Below, in pieces: positions 6,356-60,857 of a DNA stretch of 64,000 bases. Source of the DNA: Geobacteraceae bacterium. GTDB taxonomy: Bacteria; Desulfobacterota; Desulfuromonadia; Geobacterales; Geobacteraceae. Each line of letters begins with the position of its first letter. The stretch's first letter is position 1. Below the pieces are notes generated by a model. That model ran no database searches. It was not told the DNA's origin and saw only the letters and a list, made by a program, of their open reading frames with translations. The DNA is taken from positions 1 to 64,000 of the forward strand of contig WSYB01000001.1 in NCBI GenBank assembly GCA_009773645.1, written 5' to 3'. The position numbers and the translations under genes were made by a program.

Positions 6356-6438
6356 CACGAAAAACGAAAAATGCAAAAGATATTTTTAAATCTGTTCCAA
6401 GTTCGATGTTCCTCAAACCTCGAACCTCGAACCTTGAA
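6356..6438. repeat. Heptamer repeat array (acpP-fabG spacer)
   Basis: One flank has ACGAAAA, ACGAAAA, ATGCAAA. The other has CCTCAAA, CCTCGAA, CCTCGAA, CCTTGAA (6411-6438), running up to the fabG stop. The middle (GTTCCAAGTTCGATGTTCC) is largely complementary to the right array, so the RNA can fold back. Same period of 7 as the other arrays in this window. Confidence 0.75.
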
Positions 6439-7176
6439 CTACATGTACATGCCGCCGTTTACACCAATCACCTGGCCGGTAATATAGCCGGATTGTTCAG
6501 AAGCGAGAAAGAGTACGGCATTGGCGATATCGTCAGCGGTTCCCAGGCGTTCAAGGGGAATCTGGACCAAGAGTTCCTGCTTGACCTTTTCCGGAAGGGC
6601 TTCTGTCATATCGGTTGCGATAAATCCGGGGGCAACGGCATTCACGGTTACATTACGCCTGGCCAGCTCACGGGCGTTGGATTTGGTCAGTCCCATCAGC
6701 CCCGCTTTGCTGGCGCAGTAGTTGGCCTGCCCTGAATTTCCCATCTGTCCGACAACGGAGGCAATATTGATGATACGGCCGTACCTCTGCTTGCTCATGA
6801 CCTTGGCAGCGGCACGGGAGCAGAGAAACGCCCCTTTGAGATTTACATTCAGAACCGCATCCCATTCCTCGTCCTTCATGCGCAAAAGGAGCGCGTCCCG
6901 GGTAATGCCGGCGTTATTCACCAGAATATCCACGCGGCCGAATGACTCCACCGCACTATCGATCATGCGCTCCACATCAGCGGATACGGTCACATTCCCC
7001 TGGACGGCAACAGCCTCTCCACCCTTTTCCCTGATTTCGGCAACCATTGCCTCGGTTCCTTCCAGGCTGACGTCAACCGCAACAATACGAGCGCCGTTGG
7101 CCGCCAGCGCCAGAGCGATGCTGCGGCCGATACCTCGTGATGCGCCGGTTACAATGGCGACTTTTCCTTTTGGCAT
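6439..7176 (-). CDS. fabG: 3-oxoacyl-[acyl-carrier-protein] reductase
   Basis: NADPH-dependent reduction of beta-ketoacyl-ACP in fatty-acid elongation. 245 aa classical [11 protein letters not shown] cofactor motif, NNAG, catalytic Ser in [11 protein letters not shown], and YCASKAG with the Tyr/Lys pair. The C-terminus VNGGMYM is typical of FabG. ATG at 7176 is chosen because AAAGGAG lies 7 bases upstream; a TTG three bases earlier is too close. Follows fabD by 44 bases. Confidence 0.97.
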
Positions 7177-13289: not shown

Positions 13290-13300
13290 ACTCTTACCCC

Positions 13301-13328
13301 TCACTCCTCACACTTCACTCCTCACTGC
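13301..13328. repeat. Heptamer repeat array (dut-aminopeptidase spacer)
   Basis: Four units in a row: TCACTCC, TCACACT, TCACTCC, TCACTGC. They fill nearly the whole 41-base spacer. On the minus strand they read GAGGAGTGA-like, rich in Shine-Dalgarno character, just upstream of the aminopeptidase start. Confidence 0.75.
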
Positions 13329-17241: not shown

Positions 17242-17315
17242 CGAGGATCGAGGTCAAAGGAACGAGGATAGAGGATAAAACCCTCGTACCTCGTGCCTAG
17301 CTCCTCGTACCTCGT
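17242..17315. repeat. Heptamer repeat array (pnp-rpsO spacer)
   Basis: Left arm about five units (GAGGATC, GAGGTCA, AAGGAAC, GAGGATA, GAGGATA). Right arm five units (CGTACCT, CGTGCCT, AGCTCCT, CGTACCT, CGTTCAG). The arms are partly complementary (GAGG- against CCTCG-), so the transcript can form a long imperfect hairpin about 60 bases ahead of pnp. Confidence 0.8.
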
Positions 17316-18758: not shown

Positions 18759-19729
18759 TCAAAGAACTTTTTCCAGGTAGGCAAACACCGCTTCCCTGGC
18801 TTCGTCGAGCGTGCACGCCATTGTGCAGCCAGCTGCATTGTGGTGACCACCGCCGCCAAAGGCGGCCGCCAGCGCCGACACGTCCACCTTACCCTTGGAA
18901 CGAAACCCGACCTTGAACAGGCAGGGGCTGATTTCCCTGAAAAATACCGCCACTTCCACACCGCGGATGGAGCGGGGATAATTGACAAAACCGTCGGTCA
19001 ATTCCACAGTGGCGCCGGTCTTTTCATACATATCCAGTGTAACGGTTACGGCGGCAAAGTCGCCGCGCGGGGAAACATACAGGGTGCCAAGTGCCAGGGC
19101 CAGGAGTTCAAGCCGCTTTTGCGGCTGGCTCTCATAGAGTTTTTCCGCGACGGACCAGGCATTTACTCCCTTCCCCACCATTTCACCGGCTATGGCAAAG
19201 GCCTCGGGGTTGGCGTTGGAATAACGGAATGAGCCGGTATCGGTAATTACCGCGGTGTAGATGCAGAGGGCAGTATCGTAATCCATATCATGCCCGGCGG
19301 CCCTGATGGTCCTGTAGATGAGCGCCCCTGTGGCACAGGCCTGGGGATCTATCAGATTTATGGCGCCGAAGTGGTCACAGTTTAAGTGATGATCGATATT
19401 GATGAACTTTCCGATCCCTTTGAATGCACCCACCTCCGGACCGGCGCGGCGGAATTCACCCACATCCAGCACAAAGCAGACATCATAATATCCGGCGGGA
19501 ATGGTGTTTACCACCGAATCGGCCATGGGAAGGAACGTATAGAGTTCAGGGAACGGGTCACAGAAGTAGACCGTCACCTCTTTACCCTGCCCGTCACCTC
19601 TTTACCCTGCCTTTTCAGGTAATTGGCGAGGGCAAGACTGGAGCCCACTGCGTCACCGTCAGGATTTTCATGGGTGGTGATGAGAAAGGTCCGGTTCCCG
19701 GCAATTTCTTCGATAACGTTACTTATCAT
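18759..19729 (-). pseudogene. nrnA: DHH-family phosphoesterase NrnA, frameshifted by a 20-bp duplication
   Basis: NrnA degrades short oligoribonucleotides (nanoRNA) and in some species removes the 3' phosphate of pAp. ATG at 19729 (overlapping the rbfA stop) encodes MISNVIEEIAGNRTFLITTH, then the DHH-domain motif ENPDGDAVGSSLALANYLK, but stops after a perfect 20-bp tandem duplication at 19571-19610. Removing one copy joins it to TVYFCDPFPELYTF and gives about 315 aa with DHH (INIDHHLNCD) and DHHA1 (GGGGHHNAAG). Genomic order rbfA-nrnA-truB is the usual one. Could be a recent mutation, a reversible switch, or an assembly error. Confidence 0.85.
19571..19610. repeat. Perfect 20-bp tandem duplication inside nrnA
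   Basis: CCGTCACCTCTTTACCCTGC occurs at 19571-19590 and again at 19591-19610 without mismatch. Because 20 is not a multiple of 3 it breaks the nrnA frame. Confidence 0.95.
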
Positions 19730-20140: not shown

Positions 20141-22813
20141 CTATAGTGTTGCAGCGACCTTTTCGATCTCGAATGCCTCGATGATATCGCCGGTCTTGAT
20201 GTCGTTGTAGTTTTCCAGCGAGATACCGCATTCGTAGTTGGACGCCACTTCTTTCACGTCATCCTTGAAACGGCGCAGACTGGCCATTTTGCCCTCGTAA
20301 ACGACCACGTTGTCACGCAGCAGGCGAACCTGGGCGTTTCGCACCATCTTGCCGTCCGTAACATAACATCCGGCGACATTTCCATGCTTGGGAACGGAAA
20401 ATACCTCGCGGATTTCCGCCCGGCCCAGGTGTTTTTCACGGAGAGTCGGCTCAAGGAGCCCTTCCATGGCCTTTTTGATATCATCAACCGCATCGTAGAT
20501 GATGTTGTAAAGGCGGATGTCGACCCCTTCCTTCTCCGCCATCGCCTGCGCCTTCACTTCCGGGCGCACGTTAAAGCCGAGAATGATGGCATTACTGGCT
20601 GTGGCGAGGTTTACGTCCGTCTCAGTGATGGCTCCAACCGAGGCGTGGATAACGTTCAGGCGGATGGCGTCGGTAGAGAGCTTGCGCAATGATTCGGAAA
20701 CCGCCTCGACGGAACCATGGACGTCCCCCTTGACGATGGTATTGAGCTCCTTGACCTCTCCCTTCTGGATCTTTTCATACAGCTGCTCCAGGGAAAGCCT
20801 GCTCGATTTTGCCAGCGCCGTCTCACGGATCTTCTGCTGGCGGTGCTGGGCGATTTCCTTGGATTGCTTCTCATCGGGAAGAACCACGAAGACATCGCCG
20901 GCATCGGGCACACCGGTAAACCCTATCACCTCCACGGGCATGGCCGGGCCTGCGGCCAACACCTTGTCGCCACGGTCGTTCTGCATTGCGCGGACCCGAC
21001 CTGAGTGAACCCCGGCGACAAAATAATCACCGGTCTTGAGGGTCCCTTCCTGGACCAGCACGGTAGCCAGCGGTCCACGGCCCCTGTCCAGCTTCGCCTC
21101 GACAATGGTGCCGCGGGCGGGCTTATTCGGATTGGCCTTAAGCTCAAGCACATCAGCCTGGAGGAGCACCATCTCCAGAAGCGCCGGCAGATTGATCCGT
21201 TTCTTGGCTGAAACTTCGACGAATATGGTATCGCCGCCAAACTCCTCCGGAACGAGGCCGAGTTGGATCAACTCCTGCTTGACCCGGTCAGGCTTGGCTT
21301 CCGGCTTGTCAATCTTGTTGACTGCGACGATGATCGGAACGCCGGCGGCCTTGGAATGGTTGACCGCTTCCCGGGTCTGGGGCATGACGCCGTCATCGGC
21401 AGCCACCACCAGAATGACGATGTCAGTGACCTTGGCTCCCCTGGCGCGCATAGCGGTAAACGCCTCGTGTCCCGGCGTGTCGAGGAAGGTGATTTTTCTT
21501 CCGTTCAGCTCCACGTCGTAAGCGCCGATATGCTGGGTGATGCCTCCCGCCTCGCCGGCAATGACGTTGGCTTCGCGGATTGCATCCAGGAGCGAGGTCT
21601 TGCCGTGATCCACATGCCCCATGATGGTTACCACAGGGGAACGTTTCTGAAGGCTCTCCGGCGCATCGGGAGCGGCTTCCAGCATTACATCCAGGTCAAG
21701 GGCGACATTTTCGATCTCATAGCCGAATTCTCCAGCCAACAATGTTGCAGTTTCAATATCTAGAGGATGGTTTATGGTGGCCATCATCCCCATTTTCATC
21801 AGGGAACGAATGAGGTCGTTCGCCTTTATCCCCATTCGTTTGGCCAGTTCACCCACGGTGATGGTTTCGGAAATCTTGATGATGCGCTTGATGGCCTTGG
21901 GGATTGTAATCTCGGTCTTCCGCCCCTCCGGAGCGCGTCCCCTCTCCTTCTTCTTCCCCTTGCCTGCACGGGGACCAGGCTCAAAGACCCGCTCGCGCTT
22001 TTCCAGGAGCTCGGCCTTCTTTAAGGCCTCTTTCTTTTTGACGTCAGGGGCACCCTTCTTGACACCCTTTCCTATTTCCGAGACCGGCGGCAGTTCTTTT
22101 CCCTTGCGTCCCTTCTTGCGATCCTCCGGCATTACAGGCACTTCCACCGGAGCCGGCATGGCCGGCCTTCCCGGGCCCCGTGACGGTGCTGGCCGTTCGA
22201 AAGGCCGCGACGGTGCCGGCCGTTCCGTACCACGTGCTGGAGCAGGTCGTTCGGAAGGACGCGACAGGGCCGGACGGTCCGTACCACGTGGTGGAGCAGG
22301 TTTTTGAAACTCCTTCCGCTCGGGCCTCACTTCCCTCGGTTGTGCTCCCTGGATTTCAACCCGGCCGAGAATAACGGCCCTGGTGGGAGTAGCCTTGGTC
22401 ACGGGATGCTCCTCCAGATGGACGGCAGCAGGTTTCTCCAAAACCGGAGCCGCTTCCTTTACCGGCTCTTTGGTCTCTTCTTCCTTGCTAGGAGCGGCTT
22501 CCTCGGCTTTGGCCATTATTTTTTCTTCAACGGGAGGTTCCGGAGCTGCAGGCGCTTCAGGAGGAGGCTCCACAACCTTGGCCCGACGCCGTATGAGTGT
22601 TGTAGTCACACGAACTTCTTCCTTTACTTCGCTAATCGGAGCAGGAGCCGCAGCAGGAGCTTTCGTCGGCGCCATCAGTTTATTGGCATCCGCTTCATCA
22701 ATAACGGCCATGTGGTTTTTTACCTCAACCCCTATGTCCTTCAATCTGGACATAAGCTCCTTGTTATCAATGCCCATCTTCTGTGCCAGCTCATATACGC
22801 GGATTTTACTCAT
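20141..22813 (-). CDS. infB: Translation initiation factor IF-2
   Basis: 890 aa GTPase that places initiator tRNA on the 30S subunit. N-terminal IF2_N motif ([20 protein letters not shown]), a long Pro/Arg/Glu-rich linker (about residues 65-300) with degenerate RPAPSRG-type repeats, a second IF2_N, then the G domain ([40 protein letters not shown]) and domains II-IV. The repeat linker is variable in length across species and here is GC-rich. The ATG overlaps the ylxRQ stop (ATGA). Confidence 0.97.
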
Positions 22814-34092: not shown

Positions 34093-36735
34093 CTACTCCT
34101 GTCCCCTGTTCAGCGTCATCGGGATTTTCATTACAAACCTGCTGCCGCGGCCGTATTCGCTGGTGAAGGTGATCTCCCCCCGCAGCACCTCCGCAACCAG
34201 CTTTCTGGTCAGGTAGAGGCCGAGGCCGGTGCCGTAGACCTTTGTCATGAGCAGCGATTCGAGGCGGACAAACGGCTTGAAGATCTTTGCCTTGTCCTCC
34301 TCTCTGATGCCGATGCCGCTGTCTTCGATACTGATTTCGACGAAATCGGCTTGAGGATCGAGGTTCGAGGACCGAGGTTCTAGGAGTTCTTCATTCTCTC
34401 CCCGCTCCTCGTTCCCCGCGCCTCGGACCATCCGTGCGCTGACGCGCACGAAGCCCCGTTCCGTATACTTAGCCGCGTTGCTCAGCAGGTTGAGGACGCA
34501 CTGCAGAAGCCGGCGCCGGTCGGTGTTTATGCTTTGCCGCAGGTTGTTGACCTCCAGTTCCAGCCCCTTGTCCCTTATCTCCTTCTCCAGGGCGGTTACC
34601 GCCTCCGCGATCAGGTCATGGAGATCGAACTCTTCTCCCCGGACCTCGATCTGTCCGGCCTCGATCTTCGACACATCGATGACGTCGTTGATCAGCATCA
34701 GCAGGTATCTGCCGGCGCGCAGCACGGTGGCCATGTTCTCCTTCTGCTCATCGTTCAACGGTCCAACCCATTCGTTGAGGAGAATGCTGGAAAAACCGAT
34801 GACCGAGTTGAGCGGGGTCCGCAATTCGTGGCTCATGGAAGCGATGAACATCGACTTGAGGCGGTCGAGCTCCATGAGCTTGCGGTTGGCCTCCTCCATC
34901 TCTCTGGTCCGTTCCGTCACCTTCTTTTCGAGGGTGGCGGTTTGGAACAGGGTCTCCTCATGGAGGCGGGCCGCCTCGATGAGGAGCGCCACGTGGGCGG
35001 TCACGGTTTCCAGGAGGCGGAGGCTCCGCTCGCTCGGCTTCTTATCGGTAGTGGTGAAGACGCACAGCACGCCGACGCATTTGCGCCTCGGGGTGACGAG
35101 GGGAAAGGCGGCGTTAAAGCGGATATCCGCCTGGCTGCTCTCATAGCCGGTCGCGACCCGAAGAACCGCTTTACGGTCCGGGAGGATGAGCGGTTTGAGC
35201 TCCCGGGCGCAGCTCCCATAGGCACACTCCCCGATCCGCATCATCCGGTTGGCGAGGTCGATGACCTCAACCCGGCCGGTGCCGTGATGGGCCGCAAGCT
35301 GCAGGATTCCGTCGGGGGCCAGGAGGCAGATGCTCCCCTCTTCCAGGCCGGCAATCTTCAGGGACTCTTCCAGGACCCGCGCGAGGATTTCCCGCTGGTC
35401 GAGAATGTTCGCGTAGGCGGTGACCACCCGGTTGATGGCGGAAAGCTCCTCGTTGGTCGCCTTCAGCGCTTCCTCCGCTTCTTTTCGTTCGGTGATGTCC
35501 GCAACGAGGCCGTCGTAGGCGACTAGGCGCCTTTCCCGGTCGTAGCGGGGGACCGGGGTGTTCTTGATCCAGTGAATCCGGCCGTCCTTGTGCATGATGC
35601 GGTGCTCGATGGGGGGAGCTTCTCCCCCCGCAAGTACTTTAGCGGCCTGGTCCAGGACGGCTTGCCGGTCATCCTCATGGACCATGCGCAGCCAGAAGCC
35701 GGGGTCGGCGGCGTACTCGTCGGGGGCATAGCCGGTCACCGCCACGCACCCCGGTCCGTGCGACGTGCCGGAAGGCCTGCCGTCCTCCACCCGGACCGTA
35801 TAAATGTAGTCCGTCACCGACTCGAGGAGACGGCGGTAGCGCGCCTCGCTCTCCCTGAGGGCCTCCTCTGCCTCCGTCCGTTCTGCTATTTCTTGCGACA
35901 GCTGCGCGGTCCGTTCCGTTACCCGCTGTTCCAGCAATGCGTTGAGCCCTTTCAGTTCCGCCAGGGTCTGCTGGTAGATGAAGAAGAGGTAGTAGAGGAT
36001 GTGGAGAAATGCCACCTGCCGCAACAGGTGCCAGAACCACCAGTCGGCAAACCATATCTCGGAGAACGGAAACAGAATGCCGGCCATGCCGAAGAGGAGG
36101 CAGAGGCTGGCGAACAGGAAGTCGTCAAAGCCTTTTGCGGAGCAGTACCGGCGAACGAAGTAGATTGCCGCGACTAGGAAGAAAAATCCTCCGAGGGAGG
36201 TGATGGCTTTGGCGGCGGGAGTAAAGACATTCTGGCCTATCATTACCGGAAAAAGATCGGGAAATGCGATCGCGAGATATCCGAGACCGCCGACAGTGGC
36301 AACGGTGACAAGCGGCAGCAGGTCGGTTGCGTGCGACCGGGAAAGACGCGACGGCAGCCAGACGAGGGTGAACAGGAAGCCGCCGGTCAAGGAGGACGCG
36401 CAGCGCAGCCAGACGAAAGTGGTATTAACCGTCTGTACGGCATGCAGCCCGTCCAGCATCCCAATGGCGAGGAGCCCGCTGGCGATCCAGATGTGGTGAT
36501 CCATGCCTCTGCTCTGTTTCCTCAGGAAGATGAGGAGGGCGGCCAGCAGGAAGGCGGCCTGCACCCCCAGCGCTTCCAGGAACGCGTGGAGCGGTTCGTG
36601 AAGCAGACGCCAATCGCGGAAGAACAGACGCAGGAACACCGTACCGCCGACCGGGATGACAACCCCCAGGAGCAATATGCCGAGTATGCCGCGTTTAAAC
36701 CTTTTTGTCGCCGGACCTCTCTCCATTCCGCCCAT
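34093..36735 (-). CDS. Membrane sensor histidine kinase (MASE3-like, PAS, GAF, HisKA, HATPase)
   Basis: About 880 aa. N-terminal eight-helix membrane domain like MASE3 (residues about 15-265), a coiled coil (LNALLEQRVTERTAQLSQEI), PAS (about 290-420), GAF (about 440-590), HisKA with ASMSHELRTPLNSVIGFSS, and HATPase_c (NAAKYTERGFV, DSGIGI, GTGLGLYLTRKLV). The ATPase domain has an extra segment (GAGNEERGENEELLEPRSSN) encoded by a heptamer array at 34351-34430. ATG at 36735 is a likely start; a GGCGGGAAG site is close. Operon with the phosphatase and CheY genes. Confidence 0.92.
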   Translation of the reverse strand: MGGMERGPATKRFKRGILGILLLGVVIPVGGTVFLRLFFRDWRLLHEPLHAFLEALGVQAAFLLAALLIFLRKQSRGMDHHIWIASGLLAIGMLDGLHAVQTVNTTFVWLRCASSLTGGFLFTLVWLPSRLSRSHATDLLPLVTVATVGGLGYLAIAFPDLFPVMIGQNVFTPAAKAITSLGGFFFLVAAIYFVRRYCSAKGFDDFLFASLCLLFGMAGILFPFSEIWFADWWFWHLLRQVAFLHILYYLFFIYQQTLAELKGLNALLEQRVTERTAQLSQEIAERTEAEEALRESEARYRRLLESVTDYIYTVRVEDGRPSGTSHGPGCVAVTGYAPDEYAADPGFWLRMVHEDDRQAVLDQAAKVLAGGEAPPIEHRIMHKDGRIHWIKNTPVPRYDRERRLVAYDGLVADITERKEAEEALKATNEELSAINRVVTAYANILDQREILARVLEESLKIAGLEEGSICLLAPDGILQLAAHHGTGRVEVIDLANRMMRIGECAYGSCARELKPLILPDRKAVLRVATGYESSQADIRFNAAFPLVTPRRKCVGVLCVFTTTDKKPSERSLRLLETVTAHVALLIEAARLHEETLFQTATLEKKVTERTREMEEANRKLMELDRLKSMFIASMSHELRTPLNSVIGFSSILLNEWVGPLNDEQKENMATVLRAGRYLLMLINDVIDVSKIEAGQIEVRGEEFDLHDLIAEAVTALEKEIRDKGLELEVNNLRQSINTDRRRLLQCVLNLLSNAAKYTERGFVRVSARMVRGAGNEERGENEELLEPRSSNLDPQADFVEISIEDSGIGIREEDKAKIFKPFVRLESLLMTKVYGTGLGLYLTRKLVAEVLRGEITFTSEYGRGSRFVMKIPMTLNRGQE
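34351..34430. repeat. Heptamer array in frame within a histidine kinase gene
   Basis: About 11 units of 7 with alternating GAGGATC/GAGGTTC-type sequence on one side (from 34353) and CCGCTCC/TCGTTCC/CCGCGCC on the other (to 34430). The arms are partly complementary (GAGG- against CCTC-). Encoded residues are about 769-795 of the kinase, between strands of the ATPase domain. No stop codon arises. Confidence 0.8.
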
Positions 36736-38137: not shown

Positions 38138-39184
38138 TTACCCTTCCTCCCCGATGTCGGGATACTCCTCTTCCTCTCCCAGGTAGTTTCGCACGAGTAG
38201 TCTCCCTTCTTCACGCCGCACGTACTCCGGGAGAATAGGCACCTTTCCCTTCCCTCCCGGCAGATCGATGACGTAATAGGGGGTGGCAAGCCCGGAAGTA
38301 TGACCGCGCAGCCCTTCCATGATCCCGATCCCCCGCTGTACCCCAGTGCGGAAGTGTCCGGTCCCCCTGACCAGGTCCATCTGGTGGATGTAGTAGGGGC
38401 GCACCCGGATGGCGAGAAGTTTCTGCATGAGACTCTTCATCACTGCCGGCTCGTCGTTCACCCCGCGCAGCAGCACGGTCTGGTTGCCGAGGGGGATGCC
38501 TGCGTCGGCAAGTTTTGCGCAGGCCGCCGCGGATTCCAGGGTGATCTCCCGGGGGTGGTTGAATTGGGTGTTGAGGTAGAGGGGGTGGTGTTTTTGCAGC
38601 ATCCGGCAGAGCGCCGGCGTCACCCGCTCCGGCATGGTCACCGGGACGCGGCTGCCGATCCTTATGATCTCCACGTGGTCGATCTCGCGCAGCCGGGAGA
38701 GGATGTCGTCCAGCACGTCGTCGGGCAGTAAGAGCGGGTCGCCGCCGGAGAGGATGACGTCCCGGATCTCACGGTTGCCGGCGATATAGGCGAGGGGTTG
38801 ATCGAAGGAGGACGGCAAGGGGGTCCCGCCGGCGCATCCGACGCTTCTCTTGCGCATGCAGAACCGGCAGTAGACCGCGCAGGTATTGGAAATGAGCCAG
38901 ACGACCCGGTCCGGGTAGCGGTGAATGATCCCCGGCACGGGGGAGAGCCGCTCCTCGTCGAGGGGGTCTGCCGACTGGTCATCTTCAAGCTCAAGCGGGT
39001 CGGGGACGCACTGCCGCCAGATGGGGTCGCCAACCTCTAGGATGAGACTCAGGTAATGCGGCGTGATCCGCATGGGGTAGCGCTGCGCCACTTTCCTGAG
39101 CGGCTCAGGGTCTATCTCAAAACGCCCGAGCAACTCTTCCGGGTCCTTTAAACTATTGGCAAGGCTTATCCGCCAATGCTCCAT
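38138..39184 (-). CDS. epmB: EF-P beta-lysylation protein (lysine 2,3-aminomutase-like radical SAM)
   Basis: 348 aa. Radical-SAM cluster motif CAVYCRFC (CxxxCxxC), followed by RKRSVGCAGG and the KamA-type PLP segment. EpmB converts (S)-alpha-lysine to (R)-beta-lysine for EpmA. ATG at 39184 (MEHWRISLANS) is preferred; the longer frame begins with TTG and lacks a good site. The gene is 6 kb from efp-epmA but in the same block, and its C-terminus (ERVRREEGRLLVR-type region) is typical of EpmB. Confidence 0.9.
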   Translation of the reverse strand: MEHWRISLANSLKDPEELLGRFEIDPEPLRKVAQRYPMRITPHYLSLILEVGDPIWRQCVPDPLELEDDQSADPLDEERLSPVPGIIHRYPDRVVWLISNTCAVYCRFCMRKRSVGCAGGTPLPSSFDQPLAYIAGNREIRDVILSGGDPLLLPDDVLDDILSRLREIDHVEIIRIGSRVPVTMPERVTPALCRMLQKHHPLYLNTQFNHPREITLESAAACAKLADAGIPLGNQTVLLRGVNDEPAVMKSLMQKLLAIRVRPYYIHQMDLVRGTGHFRTGVQRGIGIMEGLRGHTSGLATPYYVIDLPGGKGKVPILPEYVRREEGRLLVRNYLGEEEEYPDIGEEG

Positions 39185-39268
39185 CGTAGGTCCAATTTCT
39201 GTGAACAAATCAAAGAAGGCGGAGATCAAATCCCCGCCACAGAAGGTGTTTCGCTGGATTCTCCTTCG

Positions 39269-40186
39269 TTACACTTCGAGGGCGCCGATCAGTTCTTTTA
39301 CGTCCGCGATCCCGTTTTCCACCAGATAGCGCTCCATATCCCGTGCTATGGTCTGGGCAGCGGAGGGGTCGAGAAAATTTGCCGTGCCGATCTGGACCGC
39401 AGTGGCGCCGGCAAGGATGAACTCCAGGGCGTCGATGGCGGACATTATCCCGCCGATGCCGATGATGGGGAGTTTCACCGCCCTGGCCACCTGCCAGACC
39501 ATCCGCAGCGCCACCGGTTTGATGGCGGGACCGGACAGCCCGCCGGTCACGTTTGCCAGCACCGGCCGCCGCTTTTGCAGGTCAATGGCCATGCCGGTCA
39601 GGGTGTTGATGAGCGACAGGGCGTCGGCATCGGCGTCGGCGCAGGCATGGGCCATCTCCACGATGTCGGTGACGTTGGGAGAAAGCTTGACGATGACCGG
39701 CTTGACGGTCGCTTCGCGCACCGCCCGGACCACGGAATAGGCCGCCTTCGGGTCGGTGCCGAAGACGATTCCCCCCAACTTGACATTGGGGCAGGAGATG
39801 TTCACTTCCACCCCGGCCACTTCCGGCACCCGATCCAGGTGGAAGGCCAACTCCGCGTACTCCTCGATGGTGTTGCCGAACAGATTGACGATGACCGGCG
39901 TGTCGACGGTGCGGAGAAAGGGGGTCTTCGTTTTTATAAAGGCTTCGAGACCGACATTCTGCAGCCCGATGGCGTTCAGCATCCCCCCCGGCGTCTCGAC
40001 GATGCGGGGAGTCGGGTTGCCGGCCCTGGGCTTGAGGGAAAGCCCCTTAGTAATGATGGCGCCGATCGTTTCGAGGTCCACATACCCGGCAAATTCCTCG
40101 CCATACCCGAAGGTCCCCGATGCGGTCATGACGGGATTCCGCATGTTGATTCCGGCAATTTCCACCGACATGTCAGGTCTTTTCAT
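39269..40186 (-). CDS. pyrD: Dihydroorotate dehydrogenase B, catalytic subunit
   Basis: 305 aa, FMN enzyme oxidising dihydroorotate to orotate. [20 protein letters not shown] at the start, [11 protein letters not shown] and [10 protein letters not shown] in the middle, [14 protein letters not shown] near the FMN phosphate site. A class 1B enzyme, as it is followed by pyrK. ATG at 40186 ([10 protein letters not shown]) has a TTTGGAGAATCG site; the longer frame would translate a repeat array. Upstream of epmB on the same strand. Confidence 0.96.
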
Positions 40187-40198
40187 CGATTCTCCAAA

Positions 40199-40224
40199 GA
40201 GGGGCGTATGCCATACGCCCCTAC
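40199..40224. repeat. Inverted repeat (AGGGGCGTAT/ATACGCCCCT) ahead of pyrD
   Basis: AGGGGCGTAT, GCC, ATACGCCCCT is a perfect 10-bp stem, followed by ACG. Its end GCCCCTACG is shared with the repeat at 55023-55094. It lies just upstream of the pyrD ribosome-binding site. Confidence 0.7.
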
Positions 40225-40234
40225 GATCAAATAT

Positions 40235-40290
40235 CCGTTCCCCGTTCCCCGCTTTTCGTTTTCCGATTCCCGGTTCCCGATTCCCGGTCC
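40235..40290. repeat. Heptamer repeat array (pyrD-pyrK spacer)
   Basis: Eight consecutive units: CCGTTCC, CCGTTCC, CCGCTTT, TCGTTTT, CCGATTC, CCGGTTC, CCGATTC, CCGGTCC. The last unit abuts the pyrK stop codon (TAG at 40293-40291). It is a single arm, with no complementary partner nearby. Confidence 0.85.
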
Positions 40291-41106
40291 CTAGATCCAC
40301 TGGAGTTCACGGAAATCGAACACCGGCCCGTCCTTGCAGACGCACCGATAGTCCGGGCGGTAATCCTCATGTTCACGTCCTTTTACGACGCATCCAAGGC
40401 ATGCCCCCATTCCGCATGCCATGTACGCTTCCAGTGATACCTGGCAGGGGATGGCGTTACGTCGGGCGATCTCCGCCACAGCCTTGAGCATCGGCATCGG
40501 ACCGCAGGCAAACATGGTCTTTGCCTGATTCTTTTCCGTCAGGTGCCGCTCCATTACCTCGGTCACCAGGCCGCTCACCCCCAGGGTGCCGTCGTCGGTG
40601 GCCACGTATGTCTCGACCCCAAGACGCTCGAATTCGGTAACGCAGAGGATATCCTCCCTGGTTCTGCCGCCGATGAAGAGCCTGACCGGGGATTCCTTTA
40701 CCAGCTCTTTGGCCAGGTAGTAAAGGGGCGCAAGCCCGACCCCCCCTCCCACCAGTATCTTTTCTTCAGTGGGGGTGCCCTGTTCAAACCCCTTCCCCAA
40801 AGGGCCGAGAATGTCCAGGTGATCACCGTGATGGAGGGTTGCGAGCATGACTGTCCCCCTGCCGACAACGCGGTAGAGTATCTCCAGATAGGTCTGCTCG
40901 CTTCCGTCTCCAAATTCCGCAACGGAGCTTCCCAGGTCGAATATTCCGAAGGGACGTCTTAACAGCGGGTCTATGGCATCCCGCACCTTTACCATGACAA
41001 ACTGACCCGGCCTTGACGTCGACAGTCCGTGGGGAGCTGTCAACCGCATCCTGTAATAACCCGGAGATGCCTCTGTATTGGAAATAACCATGGATTTAAA
41101 CTGCAT
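40291..41106 (-). CDS. pyrK: Dihydroorotate dehydrogenase B, electron transfer subunit
   Basis: 271 aa, ferredoxin-reductase-like FAD/[2Fe-2S] protein that passes electrons from PyrD to NAD+. FAD motif [11 protein letters not shown] part [11 protein letters not shown], and a C-terminal iron-sulphur cluster with Cys in [14 protein letters not shown] and [10 protein letters not shown]. Complete and of normal length. Overlaps the rimI stop region (11 bases). The pyrK-pyrD spacer is mostly a repeat array. Confidence 0.95.
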
Positions 41107-41581
41107 CGCGCTCTTCCCTGTCCTCTTTGAATATATATTCCATCATGATGGCATCTTCGCCGTTTTCGTAATATCTCTTGCGCCGGCCGGTTTCTTTGAA
41201 GCCGAGTTTTCGGTAAAGCGCAATGGCGGCGTGGTTGGAGGGGCGCACTTCCAGCGAGACAAAGTCGGCTCCCCCTTCCCGGCACTCAGCGATGACCCTT
41301 TCCACCAGCAGTTTTCCCAAGCCGTAACCGCGGAAATCCTTATGGACAGCCACATCAAGAATATGCCCCTCATCGAGGAGGAGCATGGGGCAAATGTAAC
41401 CGATTACCCCCCCTTCAGGACCCAGGGTGACCAGGGGAAAGGCATAGGACGATCTGAGTTCATCGAGAAAATGGGCCCGGTTCCACGGATTGGGAAAAGA
41501 ATTGGACTCTATGGCCAGAACTCCCTCCAGATCCGCTTCGGTCATCGGACAAATGGTAAATTCGGTGAGTTTCTCCTTCAT
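41096..41581 (-). CDS. rimI: Ribosomal-protein-S18-alanine N-acetyltransferase (RimI-type)
   Basis: 161 aa GNAT. MTEADLEGVLAIESNSFPNP at the start, the acetyl-CoA loop in KDFRGYGLGKLLVERVIAEC, and EVRPSNHAAIALYRKLGFKE are the RimI pattern. RimI acetylates the N-terminus of S18 in E. coli and may act on others. First gene of the minus-strand rimI-pyrK-pyrD-epmB run, divergent from purM. Confidence 0.88.
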   Translation of the reverse strand: MKEKLTEFTICPMTEADLEGVLAIESNSFPNPWNRAHFLDELRSSYAFPLVTLGPEGGVIGYICPMLLLDEGHILDVAVHKDFRGYGLGKLLVERVIAECREGGADFVSLEVRPSNHAAIALYRKLGFKETGRRKRYYENGEDAIMMEYIFKEDREERDAV

Positions 41582-41633
41582 TTTCCACGCATCATAAGCA
41601 AACGAAAATGGGTTGTAAACTCTTTTTTCGCGT

Positions 41634-41661
41634 TTGACTTTTCCGTCCGTATAGTTTAGAT
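41634..41661 (+). promoter_or_regulatory. Probable promoter of purM
   Basis: TTGACT, 16 bases, TTAGAT, about 30 bases upstream of the purM start. No PurR-like box is recognised. Confidence 0.5.
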
Positions 41662-41691
41662 TTCCTATTTCAATTCATGGGAGGAACTGCG

Positions 41692-42738
41692 TTGAGCGAT
41701 ACGAAAATCACCTACAAGGATGCCGGAGTGGATATCGATGCCGGCAACAAGTTTGTCAATCTGATAAAACCTCTGGTGAAGGCCACATCGCGGCCGGAGG
41801 TCATTGCGGACATCGGCGGTTTCGGCGGACTATTCTCGCTGAACACCAATAAGTACAAAAATCCGGTGCTGGTGTCCGGCACCGACGGCGTAGGGACCAA
41901 GCTTAAAGTGGCTTTCATGGCCGGAAAACACGATACGGTCGGCATAGACCTGGTCGCCATGTGCGTTAACGACATTATCGTCCAGGGGGCTGAACCTCTC
42001 TTCTTCCTCGACTATCTGGCCACCGGCAAATTGCATCCGGAGAAGGCCGCCGAAATTGTCAAGGGGATTTCCGACGGCTGCGTACAGGCGGGATGTGCTC
42101 TCATCGGCGGGGAAACAGCTGAGATGCCCGGCTTTTACGCCAAGGACGAATATGATCTGGCGGGCTTCACTGTCGGTGTCGTGGAGCGTGACAACATCAT
42201 AGACGGATCATCCATCACGGTCGGCAACAAATTGATCGGCATCACATCCAGCGGCCTGCACAGCAATGGTTTTTCCCTGGCCCGTAAGGTTATCTTCGAA
42301 ATAATGGGCCTCACCATCCATGCTCCCCTCCCCGGCCTCGGCAAGACCGTGGCCGAAGAGCTGCTGACCCCCACCCGCATTTACGTGAAGACCATTCTCA
42401 ACCTGCGTCGGGATTTCCGGGTCAACGGCATTGCCCATATAACCGGCGGAGGACTTCTGGAAAATATCCCCAGGATTTTGCCCCACGGTTGCAAGGCAGT
42501 GATTCATCGGGACAGTTGGCAGATGCCGGACATTTTCAAAATGTTGCAGGAGTCCGGCAATATTGAGGAATCCGAGCTGTTCCGCACCTTTAACTGCGGT
42601 ATCGGCATGGTGTTGGCAGTCCCTGAGAATGAAGCGGAGGAAATTCTGATCAGGCTCTCAGGACTGAATGAACAGGCATTTCCCATTGGCGAAGTTGCCA
42701 AGTGCAAACCTGGCGAAGAGTGCGTAGAACTGGTGTGA
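41692..42738 (+). CDS. purM: Phosphoribosylformylglycinamidine cyclo-ligase
   Basis: AIR synthetase, fifth step of purine synthesis. 348 aa from TTG at 41692. The TTG is chosen because GGGAGGA lies 6 bases upstream and MSDTKITYKDAGVDI is the family start; the ATG at 41677 is inside that ribosome-binding site. VSGTDGVGTKLKVAF, GGETAEMPGFY and FNCGIGMVLAV are PurM signatures. Followed by purN. Confidence 0.96.
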   Translation: MSDTKITYKDAGVDIDAGNKFVNLIKPLVKATSRPEVIADIGGFGGLFSLNTNKYKNPVLVSGTDGVGTKLKVAFMAGKHDTVGIDLVAMCVNDIIVQGAEPLFFLDYLATGKLHPEKAAEIVKGISDGCVQAGCALIGGETAEMPGFYAKDEYDLAGFTVGVVERDNIIDGSSITVGNKLIGITSSGLHSNGFSLARKVIFEIMGLTIHAPLPGLGKTVAEELLTPTRIYVKTILNLRRDFRVNGIAHITGGGLLENIPRILPHGCKAVIHRDSWQMPDIFKMLQESGNIEESELFRTFNCGIGMVLAVPENEAEEILIRLSGLNEQAFPIGEVAKCKPGEECVELV

Positions 42739-42750
42739 CGACGGTGAAAC

Positions 42751-42771
42751 GTGAGGAGTGAGGAGTGAGGA
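42751..42771 (+). repeat. Heptamer array forming the purN start region
   Basis: GTGAGGA three times in a row (42751-42771). The third unit begins at the purN start codon (GTG at 42765), and earlier units provide GAGGA ribosome-binding sequence seven bases before it. Confidence 0.85.
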
Positions 42772-43445
42772 GTAAAACCTTAAAGATAGGGGTCCTGGCA
42801 TCGGGTAGCGGCACAAACCTTCAATCCATCATCGACCGCATCGAAGAGGGAACGCTTCAGGCTGAAATCGCCTGTGTGATCAGCAACAATGTCGGGGCCT
42901 TTGCGTTGGAGCGGGCACGCAGGCACAATATCCCATCCGTGTATCTTGACCACCGGCTCTTTTCCGGCAGAAGCGCTTACGACGCCGCGCTCGTTGAAAC
43001 GCTGCTCGATCACCAGGTTGAACTGGTGGTGCTGGCAGGATTTATGCGCATACTGACGCCGGTGATCATAGACGCATTCCCCATGAAGATCATGAACATC
43101 CACCCTGCCCTTCTTCCCGCGTTTCCCGGCCTCCATGCGCAAAAACAGGCCCTTGACTATGGTGTCAAGATCGCCGGCTGTACCGTCCATTTTGTGGACG
43201 CGGGGACCGACACCGGTCCGATAATCATCCAGGCCGCCGTGCCGGTTCAGGAAGATGATACGGAAGAGACCCTCTCTGCCAGGATTCAGGTAGAGGAGCA
43301 CCGCATCTATCCGGAAGCTGTCAGGCTCTTTGTCGAAGGGCGCCTGCGGACGGACGGAAGAAGGGTGATAGTGAGCGGGCAGCCTGAGTATACCAGCAAT
43401 TCTTTCGCAAACCCATCTGCTTTGTATTCCCTCGGGGATACTTAA
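42765..43445 (+). CDS. purN: Phosphoribosylglycinamide formyltransferase
   Basis: 226 aa GAR transformylase, third step of purine synthesis, using 10-formyl-THF. IGVLASGSGTNLQSIID at the start, the formyl-THF region NIHPALLPAFPGLHAQ with the catalytic Asn/His, and HFVDAGTDTGPIIIQA. Start GTG at 42765 is supplied by a repeat array; the first codons (MRSKTLKIGVL) are thus partly repeat-derived. C-terminal tail of about 20 residues is longer than in E. coli PurN. Confidence 0.95.
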   Translation: MRSKTLKIGVLASGSGTNLQSIIDRIEEGTLQAEIACVISNNVGAFALERARRHNIPSVYLDHRLFSGRSAYDAALVETLLDHQVELVVLAGFMRILTPVIIDAFPMKIMNIHPALLPAFPGLHAQKQALDYGVKIAGCTVHFVDAGTDTGPIIIQAAVPVQEDDTEETLSARIQVEEHRIYPEAVRLFVEGRLRTDGRRVIVSGQPEYTSNSFANPSALYSLGDT

Positions 43446-43570
43446 CGGCAGGTCTAACTCTTGCTGCCCTTATTCTTACCCCTTTTTAAGGGCAACTACC
43501 CTTTTTCCGCCACAACCCCCCCGGACCTCCCCTTATTTCTCCACCATCCTTATCGAACCGTGCCTGCTGC

Positions 43571-43753
43571 TCAGCCGCTTTGCTTAGGCGTTTTCCGACG
43601 TCTGGCAATATCCACAATCTTTCCGTCCTTAACCACATAGCATGGGGTTTTTGTTTGCCTCGCCAGCGTACGGGCTGATTTGGCAGCCCGTTTCAAGGCC
43701 TTGTCAACTCCTGCCAGGTCAGGATCTTTGGGCAATTCTTTTTTAACACTCAT
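43571..43753 (-). CDS. Small basic protein, putative antitoxin partner of the zeta-like kinase
   Basis: 60 aa, MSVKKELPKDPDLAGVDKAL, rich in Lys and Arg, with LARQTKTPCYVVKDGKIVDI. The start overlaps the 3' end of the zeta-like gene by 11 bases. Small proteins of this pattern sit next to zeta-like AAA ATPases in other genomes, so it may be the antidote, but this is inference. ATG at 43753 is preferred to a much longer frame that overlaps the kinase. Confidence 0.6.
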   Translation of the reverse strand: MSVKKELPKDPDLAGVDKALKRAAKSARTLARQTKTPCYVVKDGKIVDIARRRKTPKQSG

Positions 43754-44273
43754 TTTTCTCTCCCCACTCCAGTAACACCGGCACGTTGCCCGAGTTATCG
43801 TAAAGAATCCAGGCATCCACGATAGATTTGTACAGGTTTGCGAAATTCCGTAAGCCATGATCGAATCTGCGACGAACGACATGCTCAGGCACGTTGTGGC
43901 CGCCCTGTGCGACCCGACCGGCAACCCGCGCAACAGCCATGTCTGCATTCGGCAGACTCAGGAATATGAGCTTAACGTGGTAGCCAAGCTTCCGCCACTC
44001 GCTGATTTTGTAGAGATAAGAGCGCCCGCTCAGGGTCGTCTCAAAGGCAAAACTCCGCCTGGTGCGCACACAATTCTCAATCTCTTCGAGCATCATGCGA
44101 CCTGCGCGGACAGCCACCTTCTCGGGTTCGAAGGGGGCGAGCCCCGCTGCTATGAGATCGGCGTTGATAAAGGTCGGGCAGTGGGCTTCGTTAGGGAGAA
44201 ACTCACGGGCAAAGGTGGTCTTGCCGGCCCCGTTCGGGCCGGCGATGATGACGATTTTCAGTTCAGTGTTCAT
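43743..44273 (-). CDS. Zeta-toxin-like P-loop kinase
   Basis: 176 aa. Walker A IAGPNGAGKTTFAREF, then INADLIAAGLAPFEPE, FAFETTLSGRSYL and RVAGRVAQGGHNVPEHVV match zeta-type UDP-GlcNAc kinases or related P-loop phosphotransferases. Zeta toxins phosphorylate UDP-N-acetylglucosamine and block the cell wall pathway; for this subgroup the substrate is not known. Paired with the small gene downstream. An upstream direct repeat may bind the antitoxin. Confidence 0.8.
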   Translation of the reverse strand: MNTELKIVIIAGPNGAGKTTFAREFLPNEAHCPTFINADLIAAGLAPFEPEKVAVRAGRMMLEEIENCVRTRRSFAFETTLSGRSYLYKISEWRKLGYHVKLIFLSLPNADMAVARVAGRVAQGGHNVPEHVVRRRFDHGLRNFANLYKSIVDAWILYDNSGNVPVLLEWGEKNEC

Positions 44274-44294
44274 AACTCTTGATGTGTCATATTG

Positions 44295-44329
44295 CTTTCT
44301 ACCTGCAAATTGACTTGTTACTTTCTACC
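44295..44329. repeat. Direct repeat upstream of the zeta-like gene
   Basis: CTTTCTACC at 44295-44303 and 44321-44329, separated by 17 bases, within the presumed promoter region of the minus-strand zeta-like gene. Could be an operator. Confidence 0.35.
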
Positions 44330-44376
44330 AGAATCCAACCACATTTTCCATGAAAACTTTTTCGAGCAAATTAGGC

Positions 44377-44402
44377 AAAAAAGGCGGGTTATCACGCCGC
44401 CT
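44377..44402 (-). terminator. Rho-independent terminator downstream of the YkgJ-like gene
   Basis: Minus strand AAGGCGGCGTGATAACCCGCC then TTTTTTG. Stem AAGGCGG/CCGCCTT with loop, followed by a T run. Lies 7 bases after the YkgJ-like stop. Confidence 0.7.
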
Positions 44403-44408
44403 TCGCTT

Positions 44409-45089
44409 TCACCGTGCCAGCTTTTCCCCCCATTCCTTCCAGTCAAACCGATCAAAATCGATCAGAAGCGCAGTCGGAATGAAGGTGTCCAGCTCATTAA
44501 AGGGATGCTTAAAGAGTATGGTTGTAAACTGTCGGAAAAGCAGCAGTTCCTCTTTGAACAGTCGTGTGAATTCCCAACGCAGTTTCTCCATCTCAAGGGG
44601 ATTATCCCCGGTAAAATTAAGGGTGCACCATTCGTCGTGCAGGAGCTCGCCAGACACATCCAAGAGCGGTATGCCGTGGAGACGGCAGGTCATGGGGCGG
44701 TGGTCGTAGACGAGGCATCTGCCGTCCTCCGCGAGAAGGGGACAGGGGGTCTCGTCGTCGTCCGGCATAAGCGCCTCCCACTCCTCCTCGGGGCGGTAAT
44801 TGAGGAGATAGGGGCGGTCGAAGTCCGGCCAAAGCTCCTTAAGCCCAACGAGGCGCTGGAGGACCTTCTCCCGCACTTCCTCCCGCACTATAGAAGGAAG
44901 ACTGTTAAAACCGCTCTTGAGATAGCATGCGTCGAGCAGGGTGATGTCGAACAGCCCCCGGCAACATTCGGAACAGCCGGAACGACAGGCAATGGCCTGC
45001 GGATGGGCCGCAAGGCAACGGGTAAACCAGGCGTCAACCTCGGCGAGGAGGCGACCGTAGCTGTTTAGGGTTGTTTCAAGCTGTTTCAT
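44409..45089 (-). CDS. YkgJ-family cysteine-cluster protein
   Basis: About 226 aa. Cysteines cluster in ACRSGCSECCRG near residue 38-46, then CPLLAEDGRCLVYDHRPMTC about 80 residues later. This is the UPF0153/YkgJ zinc- or iron-sulphur-cluster pattern, of unknown function. ATG at 45089 is one option; an ATG 10 codons earlier (45119) also has no clear site. Last gene of the mazEF-fic run. Confidence 0.85.
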   Translation of the reverse strand: MKQLETTLNSYGRLLAEVDAWFTRCLAAHPQAIACRSGCSECCRGLFDITLLDACYLKSGFNSLPSIVREEVREKVLQRLVGLKELWPDFDRPYLLNYRPEEEWEALMPDDDETPCPLLAEDGRCLVYDHRPMTCRLHGIPLLDVSGELLHDEWCTLNFTGDNPLEMEKLRWEFTRLFKEELLLFRQFTTILFKHPFNELDTFIPTALLIDFDRFDWKEWGEKLAR

Positions 45090-45172
45090 CAGACTTTCAC
45101 CGGCGACTTTATACCTCATCGGCCGTCACCACATCAAACGGCACACCCAGTGCCTGGCGTCAAACTGAATCT

Positions 45173-45925
45173 TCATTGCGCATCACCCACAACCTTCAAC
45201 CCTTGCCGGGCGGAAGCCAGCACGTAGCCGGCAATCAACCGGTGAAACTCTTCTTTATCGCCGCCAATCTCAAGGGCGTGATAGTAGGCAAGCCGGCTTT
45301 CCGTTTCGCCCGGGATATTGGCAATGGGATAGCCATGCTGCAGCAAAATAAGATTCATAACCAGTCGAACCGTACGACCGTTTCCGTCAACAAAAGGATG
45401 AATGGTCACAATCCGCTCGTGCATCTCGGCTGCCAGAATAACCGGATGCAGCACCTGCCGCTGCTCCTCATAGAATCTGAAACAGTCCTCCATCAGTGAT
45501 GGAACCTGCCAAGGCTGGGGCGGAATATGGCGGCTGCCGCTGATGCTGACTGGGACACTGCGGTAGAGTCCGGCCTTTTCCCGATCGATGCTGTGCAGCA
45601 CGATGGCGTGGAGTTGCTTGACCAGGCTCTCGGTAAGCGGGGTAGCCTGCTGTACCAACTCGCGCAGGAACAACACCGCTTCATAGTGATTGATCGCCTC
45701 CAGATGCTCCCGCATCGACTTTCCCGCAACGGTCAACCCCTTGTGAATCACCAGATCGGTTTCGCGCAGGGTCAGCGTATTCCCTTCAATCCGGTTGCTT
45801 TCGTAGGTGTATTCGACCGCCAGCGCCTCGGAAATGCTCTCGTTATCCAGAGGCCGCAGTACATCAAGGCGTTTTTTCAGGTCATCAATTTCAGCCAGCA
45901 GTGAGTTTAATTCCAAATTCTCCAT
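45173..45925 (-). CDS. Fic-family adenylyltransferase with an N-terminal inhibitory motif
   Basis: 250 aa. The Fic core HPFVDGNGRTVRLVMN (HPFxxGNGR) is near residue 168. A [ST]xxxE[GN] motif, SNRIEGNT, lies N-terminally (about residue 38), so this is a class II, auto-inhibited Fic enzyme that AMPylates Tyr/Ser/Thr of targets. Target unknown. It follows mazF by 38 bases on the same strand with an AAAGGTAAACAT site. Confidence 0.93.
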   Translation of the reverse strand: MENLELNSLLAEIDDLKKRLDVLRPLDNESISEALAVEYTYESNRIEGNTLTLRETDLVIHKGLTVAGKSMREHLEAINHYEAVLFLRELVQQATPLTESLVKQLHAIVLHSIDREKAGLYRSVPVSISGSRHIPPQPWQVPSLMEDCFRFYEEQRQVLHPVILAAEMHERIVTIHPFVDGNGRTVRLVMNLILLQHGYPIANIPGETESRLAYYHALEIGGDKEEFHRLIAGYVLASARQGLKVVGDAQ

Positions 45926-45963
45926 ATGTTTACCTTTCCCGCGGCTTGAATTGTTCGAGTTGC

Positions 45964-46314
45964 TTATCGTCGAATATCCACCGCGGCAAGCAGCGCCTGC
46001 TCAACCTGGGTCAGCAACTCATCCGGAACCGCGCCGACTTTGTCAGTCAACTTGGCACGGTCAAGAGGGGTGATCTTGTGGCAAAGGGCGATGCTGTCGT
46101 TGGAGAGTCCGGTCATGCCGGCCGGGAGCGCCACTACGGTAGGGCCGCGGCGCTTTTGCCCGGCCGAGGTTGAGATAGGAACAACGATGATGGATCGCCA
46201 TCCGGGGGTCTGATTGAAGGCGTCGTGAGAAATGATGATGACCGGCCGCCGGCCGCTCTGTTCCGAACCCGAACGTGGCGCAAGGTTTGCCCAGTAGATG
46301 TCACCCCGGTTCAA
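45964..46314 (-). CDS. mazF: MazF/PemK-family endoribonuclease toxin
   Basis: 116 aa. MNRGDIYWANLAPRSGSEQS and RPVIIISHDAFN are the MazF signature. MazF toxins cleave mRNA, tRNA or rRNA at short sequences. The ATG overlaps the antitoxin stop (ATGA at 46314-46311), which gives translational coupling. Confidence 0.93.
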   Translation of the reverse strand: MNRGDIYWANLAPRSGSEQSGRRPVIIISHDAFNQTPGWRSIIVVPISTSAGQKRRGPTVVALPAGMTGLSNDSIALCHKITPLDRAKLTDKVGAVPDELLTQVEQALLAAVDIRR

Positions 46315-48674: not shown

Positions 48675-48729
48675 GACAAACTCCTTAATTATCAGTCGTC
48701 AACCTGTGCCCGATTTTACCATGACGAGC

Positions 48730-48797
48730 AGGCAAAAGGCAAAGGGCAAAAGGCAAAACATATTTTCCGTTGGCCTTTTGCCGTTAGCCCTTTGCCG
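48730..48797. repeat. Heptamer hairpin array (purQ-purF spacer)
   Basis: Left arm AGGCAAA, AGGCAAA, GGGCAAA, AGGCAAA. Loop ACATATTTTCCG. Right arm TTGGCCT, TTTGCCG, TTAGCCC, TTTGCCG. Four units each, arms complementary (GGCAAA against TTTGCC). It begins three bases after the purQ stop codon on the minus strand. Confidence 0.9.
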
Positions 48798-60781: not shown

Positions 60782-60787
60782 AAAATC

Positions 60788-60857
60788 AGTGAAGAGTGAA
60801 CAGTGAAAAGTGAATAAATATCTTTCCGATTCACCTTTCACCCTTCACCTTTCACGC
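60788..60857. repeat. Heptamer hairpin array (pgk-tpiA spacer)
   Basis: Left arm AGTGAAG, AGTGAAC, AGTGAAA, AGTGAAT. Loop AAATATCTTTCCGA. Right arm TTCACCT, TTCACCC, TTCACCT, TTCACGC. Four units each, arms complementary (GTGAA against TTCAC). Fills almost the whole spacer. Confidence 0.9.

Follow-up and report, generated by a model that had tools for sequence, protein, structure and literature searches.

A seven-base tandem repeat at the purM-purN junction of a Geobacteraceae bacterium probably supplies the Shine-Dalgarno site and the only start codon of purN

In a Geobacteraceae bacterium, a seven-base tandem repeat lies between purM and purN and extends into the start of purN, which raises the question whether purN is translated from the repeat itself and how such a repeat came to be there. 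The window, the whole stretch of 64,000 nucleotides analysed here, carries three tandem GTGAGGA units at 42751-42771 by direct reading. Variant units stand in register on both sides (GTGAAAC at 42744-42750 and GTAAAAC at 42772-42778), so the array reads GTGAAAC-(GTGAGGA)x3-GTAAAAC at 42744-42778 on the plus strand, as found by direct reading, Tandem Repeats Finder and pattern search. Tandem Repeats Finder called 42751-42773 with period 7, 3.3 copies and 100% matches, which confirmed the three copies described in the first-pass annotation, and 3.3 perfect copies of a tandem 7-nt unit make it a heptamer SSR (at least two copies). The 17-mer array core had 7 matches in the 64-kb window at up to 3 mismatches against 0.13 expected, a count that none of 100 shuffles reached, and the lag-7 score of the purM-purN junction was reached by none of 20000 junction shuffles. 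The array is more than chance. Several other identities could be set aside. GTGAGGA contains no run of three G, so the array is not of the G4 subtype with its four runs of at least three G, and the unit is not TAACTGA. No inverse partner array, as a right (convergent) arm would be, was found within 110 nt of the purN array (best 10 of 18), and an Rfam 15 scan of 39000-46000 gave no family match at E up to 1, which rules out a known RNA family.

The purN ORF (42765-43445, plus strand, 226 aa) starts with a GTG inside the array, and its product matched the equivalog TIGR00639 with 256.6 bits (cut-off 150.1), residues 7-195 aligning to profile positions 2-190; the nearest named PurN relatives are Geobacteraceae. 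The ORF upstream (41677-42738, plus strand), which we take to be purM from its first-pass naming, ends with TGA at 42736-42738, which leaves a gap of 26 nt to the purN GTG. Direct reading showed that a TGA at 42759-42761 (plus strand) closes the purN frame upstream of GTG 42765, and the frame becomes open at +18 of the array. Between this TGA and the conserved KIGVLASG, GTG 42765 is the sole in-frame ATG, GTG or TTG, and the next in-frame candidate is only at residue 38, so the start of purN must lie in the array, and the GTG of the third GTGAGGA is the purN start as had been proposed before.

The other array GTGs are not equivalent to it. GTG 42751 and GTG 42758 lie in the two frames other than that of purN, and each opens a five-codon ORF (VRSEE-stop, plus strand): the one from the first GTGAGGA (42751-42768) is without a Shine-Dalgarno (SD) site and ends in TGA 42766-42768, which overlaps the purN GTG, and the one from the second (42758-42775) ends in TAA 42773-42775 and is without a well-placed SD. 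GTG 42744 shares the purN frame but hits the stop at 42759-42761. Duplex energies were calculated between the anti-SD sequence ACCUCCUU and the 8-mers ending 2-9 nt before each start, and they were -2.8, -3.4, -3.0 and -7.8 kcal/mol for GTG 42744, 42751, 42758 and 42765, respectively. The letters ACCUCCUU are assumed to hold for this organism. A search for the 16S tail found nothing in its own assembly, nor did one for the 16S family, which in a control detected 16S in no more than 9 of 14 known genomes; of 6 relatives tested, 2 carried the tail GGATCACCTCCTTT. By duplex energy, the predicted purN SD is GAGGAG at 42753-42758 (plus strand), 6 nt before the GTG, and its GAGGA (42753-42757) is spaced 7 nt from GTG 42765; neither GTG 42758 nor GTG 42751 has a GAGGA at the equivalent distance. 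Frames and duplex energies thus point to one usable start in the array. The first-pass suggestion of two or three equivalent starts fails, because frame and SD placement rule out several equivalent purN starts. The suggestion that the repeat makes its own ribosome-binding site held in that the repeat itself is the SD, but this is well placed only for GTG 42765 and not for each GTG, and the spacing had been assigned wrongly: the GAGGA directly before each array GTG is spaced 0 nt from it, and the site that can be used stands one repeat earlier. In the predicted RNA folding, the SD was 57-63% unpaired and the GTG only 37-45% unpaired, and the purN ribosome site is partly structured in this prediction. 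Translational coupling by an overlapping stop and start is known from GTGA/ATGA junctions, and each array unit boundary likewise contains GTGA, a start overlapping a stop. Unlike in such coupling, the purM stop and the purN start are 26 nt apart, and the overlapping stop at purN is that of a five-codon ORF lacking an SD.

Homologous junctions were then compared among relatives, a set of 58 genomes that holds no second genome of the same genus. From 55 purN matches in 54 of the 58 genomes, the 30 purN junctions with loci available were read (our genome and 29 others), preferring an ATG within 45 nt if one was present. On this reading 28 of the 29 relatives start purN with ATG and only one (G004) with GTG, and the gap of the latter is weakly period-7 (10/14, shuffle P 0.006); the purM-purN gap of another relative (G006) holds a two-armed GTTCAAC-type element. 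A normal ATG with a conventional site in relatives had been named beforehand as a sign against the array start, and this was found by half, for the ATG. It shows that the array is derived here, and it is not evidence that the GTG is wrong. When arrays were called from a lag-7 score of at least 12/14 within 120 nt upstream of the start, they were present, our genome included, at 2 of 30 purN junctions, at 8 of 28 miaA junctions (L239, a partial match, and L215, with a misplaced start, were dropped) and at 4 of 29 mtaB junctions (L244, with a misplaced start, was dropped), and in 3 of 1033 control windows in those loci. No array of another period was found at purN and miaA; at mtaB, 4 of 29 had period 9 and one had period 8. 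The miaA units were of the GTGAGGA, GGTCGGT, GTGAAGA (two genomes of one genus), TTCACCC, ACAAGCT, CCCGACT and TTACGAA types, and the mtaB units of the GTGAGGA, GGTGATT, GATGGTG and GGGGACC types. Inheritance of one heptamer at a junction therefore fails at miaA and mtaB. Unrelated units at the same junctions, together with the rarity of arrays in control windows, indicate that heptamer arrays arise repeatedly at these junctions and that the unit is mostly not inherited.

The repeat is not shared by all relatives: the degenerate three-unit pattern GTGAGGN x3 was found in 16 of the 58 genomes, ours included, which rules out arrays common to all of them. Among 297 genomes sampled across the phylum, few of them near relatives, 2 had the perfect four-unit pattern, ours included. 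In a genome of the same phylum and another class (G215), a 20-unit GTGAGG array stands directly after a gene end, which shows that the unit also occurs beyond this family. At three mtaB loci (L245, L247 and L249) and one miaA locus (L214) of relatives, units containing ATGGTG or GGTGGTC reach the start, and ATG-bearing heptamers may also supply starts.

To place the purN array among the repeats of its own genome, we used 464 kb, composed of the window and 20 stretches chosen without regard to arrays. This sample contained 48 period-7 runs, and at periods 4, 5, 6, 8, 9, 10, 11, 12 and 13 it contained 0, 0, 3, 2, 4, 0, 1, 3 and 3; the harmonic period 14 gave 18 runs. With a shorter detection window there were 57 runs at 48 loci, a dispersed and mostly intergenic set as in the Xanthomonas/Nostoc-type class: 38 of the 48 loci lay between genes or at the edge of one, and 10 were genic, with called genes covering 79%. 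Five relatives sampled with 80 kb each had 0-2 period-7 runs apiece, which suggests that period-7 runs are expanded in our genome. The units vary by locus (GTGAGGN, GTGAANN, GTTCNAN, CGAGGTN, GGGAANC, AAGGCNA and others). An inverse partner within 110 nt was found for 37 of the 57 runs, against 4 for reversed, 13 for complement and 9 for direct controls, and the G-rich arm leads in 30 of 35 informative arms. In the window, mostly two-armed arrays with differing units lie at 6357-6440, 17243-17315, 34353-34425, 40235-40288, 48729-48797 and 60787-60855, the last between genes that, judged by their ends, look pgk-like and tpiA-like. A one-armed array of five GTGARRN-type units lies at 13291-13325 on the minus strand.

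GTGAGG arrays were then examined in the 464-kb sample plus 27 regions chosen among the matches listed, which is not a census. This DNA held at least 53 GTGAGG arrays, 23 of them one-armed and 30 arms of two-armed elements. Genes were called by codon usage, and a called start is that of the longest ORF, which overcounts starts. For the 23 one-armed arrays among the matches listed, the upstream gene was on the same strand in 16, on the opposite strand in 0 and without a call in 3, and 4 lay inside opposite-strand genes; an earlier, cruder orientation test of the same 23 gave 16 '+', 2 '-' and 5 unclear. Of these 23 listed arrays, 10 contained the upstream stop and 13 a called downstream start; 8 contained the two together. 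In co-directional gaps, one-armed arrays among the matches listed were 13 '++' against 0 '--' (12 against 1 by the cruder test). The 30 two-armed arms among the matches listed divided into 10 '++', 8 '--', 5 with one neighbour called and 7 genic, with a stop inside 8, a called start inside 4 and both in 3. In 20 loci of relatives, selected for holding arrays, there were 22 one-armed arrays: 17 followed a gene on the same strand and 1 a gene on the opposite strand, 3 had no upstream gene called, and 1 was inside a gene; a stop was inside 6, a called start inside 7 and both inside 1. Long uniform arrays of 9, 11 and 12 units occurred at L172, L171 and L164, and proteins entering arrays from upstream end with VRSEE, VKSEE, KSEE or similar (L164-L167, L169, L170, L172 and L175).

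Does any other gene start in an array? Ten downstream proteins from the 23 loci, picked because they had no obvious downstream start, were scanned against protein families, and in 7 of the 10 the family match starts ahead of any alternative start codon. Five of these scored over the cut-off (PurN, LPS heptosyltransferase II, TruD, MiaA and MtaB), and two, one DNA glycosylase-like and one DsrP-like protein, scored below the curated cut-offs. Judged by these matches, no start outside the array fits purN, miaA, truD, mtaB and the heptosyltransferase-like gene. TrmJ and a UbiA-type protein, 2 of the 10, have an alternative start codon. The 61-aa protein at L171 gave no family match in the scan; a longer ORF in G053, from another family of the order, shares a KKHPCPDC start region with it and likewise starts in a GTGAGGA array, which follows a gene with a similar end (L207). 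An array start cannot be read for every array, and it was rejected where the array GTG is a probable ORF extension. The real start is probably downstream of the array at L119, L169 (1213), L170, L175, L177, L179 and L184; at L119, L169 (1213) and window position 13291, an ATG just past the array is at least as likely a start. In the last case, a 372-aa ORF could begin in the 13291-13325 array (minus strand), and the ATG lies 15 nt onward.

Heptamer repeats as a class are already known. Among repeats of 5-11 nt, those of seven bases are reported to be the most frequent in the majority of bacterial genomes surveyed (Mrazek 2007, as cited in PMC4679880 and PMC4692102). They have no agreed function or cause. 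The heptameric repeats GGGAATC/(GGGANTN)n of Xanthomonas and GGGGA(C/T)T of Nostoc form hundreds of arrays per genome, 89-93% of them intergenic, in the portions available of Rehm et al. 2015 (PMC4692102). As described there, they have in common with our arrays a 7-nt unit with conserved and free positions, convergent pairs, a location nearer to the upstream than to the downstream ORF and mostly between co-directional genes, and positions not shared between related species (PMC4692102), and our location pattern matches the Xanthomonas class closely. Unlike those repeats, so far as that text describes them, our genome has many different units, GTGAGGA has only GG runs and no G3 as in their quadruplex model, and it also carries a start, a stop and an SD and extends into the genes (PMC4692102). 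The TAACTGA direct repeats of Beggiatoaceae (MacGregor 2015, PMC4679880, accessible in part) are also heptamer arrays that are mostly intergenic and point toward and lie near a start codon, and stops in the forward direction restrict their gene overlap to 18 nt. GTGAGGA is itself SD and start, whereas TAACTGA is described in that part as having little SD character, its genes being mostly without an SD (PMC4679880). Nearer to our organism, the available portion of the Geobacter metallireducens report describes multicopy elements of four or five tandem heptanucleotides, GGACCGG and MTYCTGA (PMC2700814). These elements resemble ours in coming from related bacteria, in some opposite-strand pairs and in being both intergenic and intragenic; they differ in their units and in being annotated as putative regulator-binding or RNA elements, and that portion describes no start or stop function (PMC2700814). 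Multicopy sequences have also been reported from G. bemidjiensis (PMC2996986, accessible in part). A literature search, with most subscription papers not covered, found no heptamer array reported as stop, SD and start at once, so that we count the GTGAGGA stop-SD-start form as new within a known class. The letters of the purN array also turn up in the literature on sheep (one match, in the accessible text).

We consider it likely that the purN array is a local product of genome-wide 7-base repeat turnover and that it supplies the SD and the only start of purN. Seven-base tandem repeats would turn over throughout the genome at intergenic, mainly operon-internal sites, and at purM-purN such a repeat would have replaced the short gap and ATG start found in nearly all relatives read. 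The array would now provide the SD GAGGAG (42753-42758) and the sole start codon GTG 42765. The GTGAGGA unit is suited to this role, since it combines the start codon GTG, the stop TGA overlapping it and the SD core GAGGA. As 7 is 1 modulo 3, all three array frames are equivalent, and none runs for more than 21 nt before it has met both a stop and a GTG. Of 2344 circular heptamers, 11, GTGAGGA among them, combine a stop with an ATG or GTG that has an SD core ending 4-9 nt upstream of it. A sufficiently long array should end whatever frame enters it from upstream with no more than VRSEE added, and the downstream gene should open from the last unit regardless of copy number. The arrays presumably grow and shrink by slippage, ribosomes would use them as stop and start, and frame neutrality may be the reason for keeping GTGAGGA on the coding strand; tolerance of copy number may also let long uniform arrays persist between genes. 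The GTGAGGA arrays show how a microsatellite could come to serve real genes for termination, ribosome binding and initiation, and a junction of this type could be buffered against copy-number change. Unrelated heptamers at the same places and a period 7 far above background point to a mutational process with 7-nt steps at junctions, for whose study aligned sites with and without arrays are available.

A more far-reaching reading, which we hold only tentatively, is that GTGAGGA arrays are evolved frame-neutral operon junctions with an interchangeable stop, SD and start. In these bacteria, some process would create and remove seven-base arrays at gene junctions again and again, and an array with GTGAGGA as its unit would fuse onto both neighbouring proteins, as C-terminal VRSEE and N-terminal MRSEE. 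If this is true, copy number tunes downstream translation stepwise with neither gene broken, and core genes such as purN, miaA and mtaB rely on a microsatellite for initiation. The main rival, to which we give slightly less credence still, is that the arrays are neutral slippage debris surviving where tolerated, and that purN uses a start that happened to be there. GTGAGGA has stops on one strand only, so it would persist on the coding strand only at gene ends and junctions, and this tolerance alone explains part of the distribution. Debris also agrees with the unrelated heptamers at identical junctions and with the four one-armed arrays, among the matches listed, inside opposite-strand genes, where GTGAGGA has no stop; TAACTGA has an equal asymmetry, and its author argues for such a filter in the accessible part of that paper (PMC4679880). 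But the filter alone leaves the 0 '--' against 13 '++' one-armed co-directional arrays among the matches listed unexplained, and two-armed elements in co-directional gaps occur in both orientations. That contrast may shrink, at worst to 13 against 4, as reverse junction arrays can be called as 'inside'.

Two regulatory explanations carry less weight. GGA is the core motif of CsrA, and the GGA motifs could be sites at which CsrA or another RNA-binding protein blocks the purN ribosome-binding site; our genome encodes CsrA (PF02599, E 2.7e-22), and CsrA-like, S1 and cold-shock proteins are listed as TAACTGA candidates in the available part of MacGregor 2015 (PMC4679880). Many array units have no GGA, both in our genome and at identical junctions, and the predicted folding at purN shows no hairpin presenting GGA, which makes this very unlikely. 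Less probable again, and hardly credible to us, is a phase-variable contingency locus whose copy number switches purN by frame. In its favour, seven is not divisible by three, and tandem repeats in principle tend to slip. But purM terminates before the array, and the start is the last GTGAGGA unit, so that gain or loss of units upstream keeps purN in frame; no frame shift by copy number is predicted, and phase variation by frame was rejected. Of the two effects that the first-pass annotation gave to a change of unit number, the changed distance to purM stands and the changed purN frame does not. Copy number would alter only that distance and the count of SD copies. The context before GTG 42758 is what purN would have after losing one unit, which would leave it with a weak site. 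A good purN SD thus seems to need at least three GTGAGGA units, and only a fall below three is predicted to matter.

Some other features of the window were also recorded. A 54-bp tandem repeat of 2 copies with an inner 27-bp period lies at 22194-22301, and a perfect 20-bp tandem repeat at 19571-19611. After purN, a P-loop ORF on the minus strand (43571-44273, MNTELKIVIIAGPNGAGKTTFAREF), which we presume to be zeta-toxin-like, overlaps a 125-aa ORF on the same strand.
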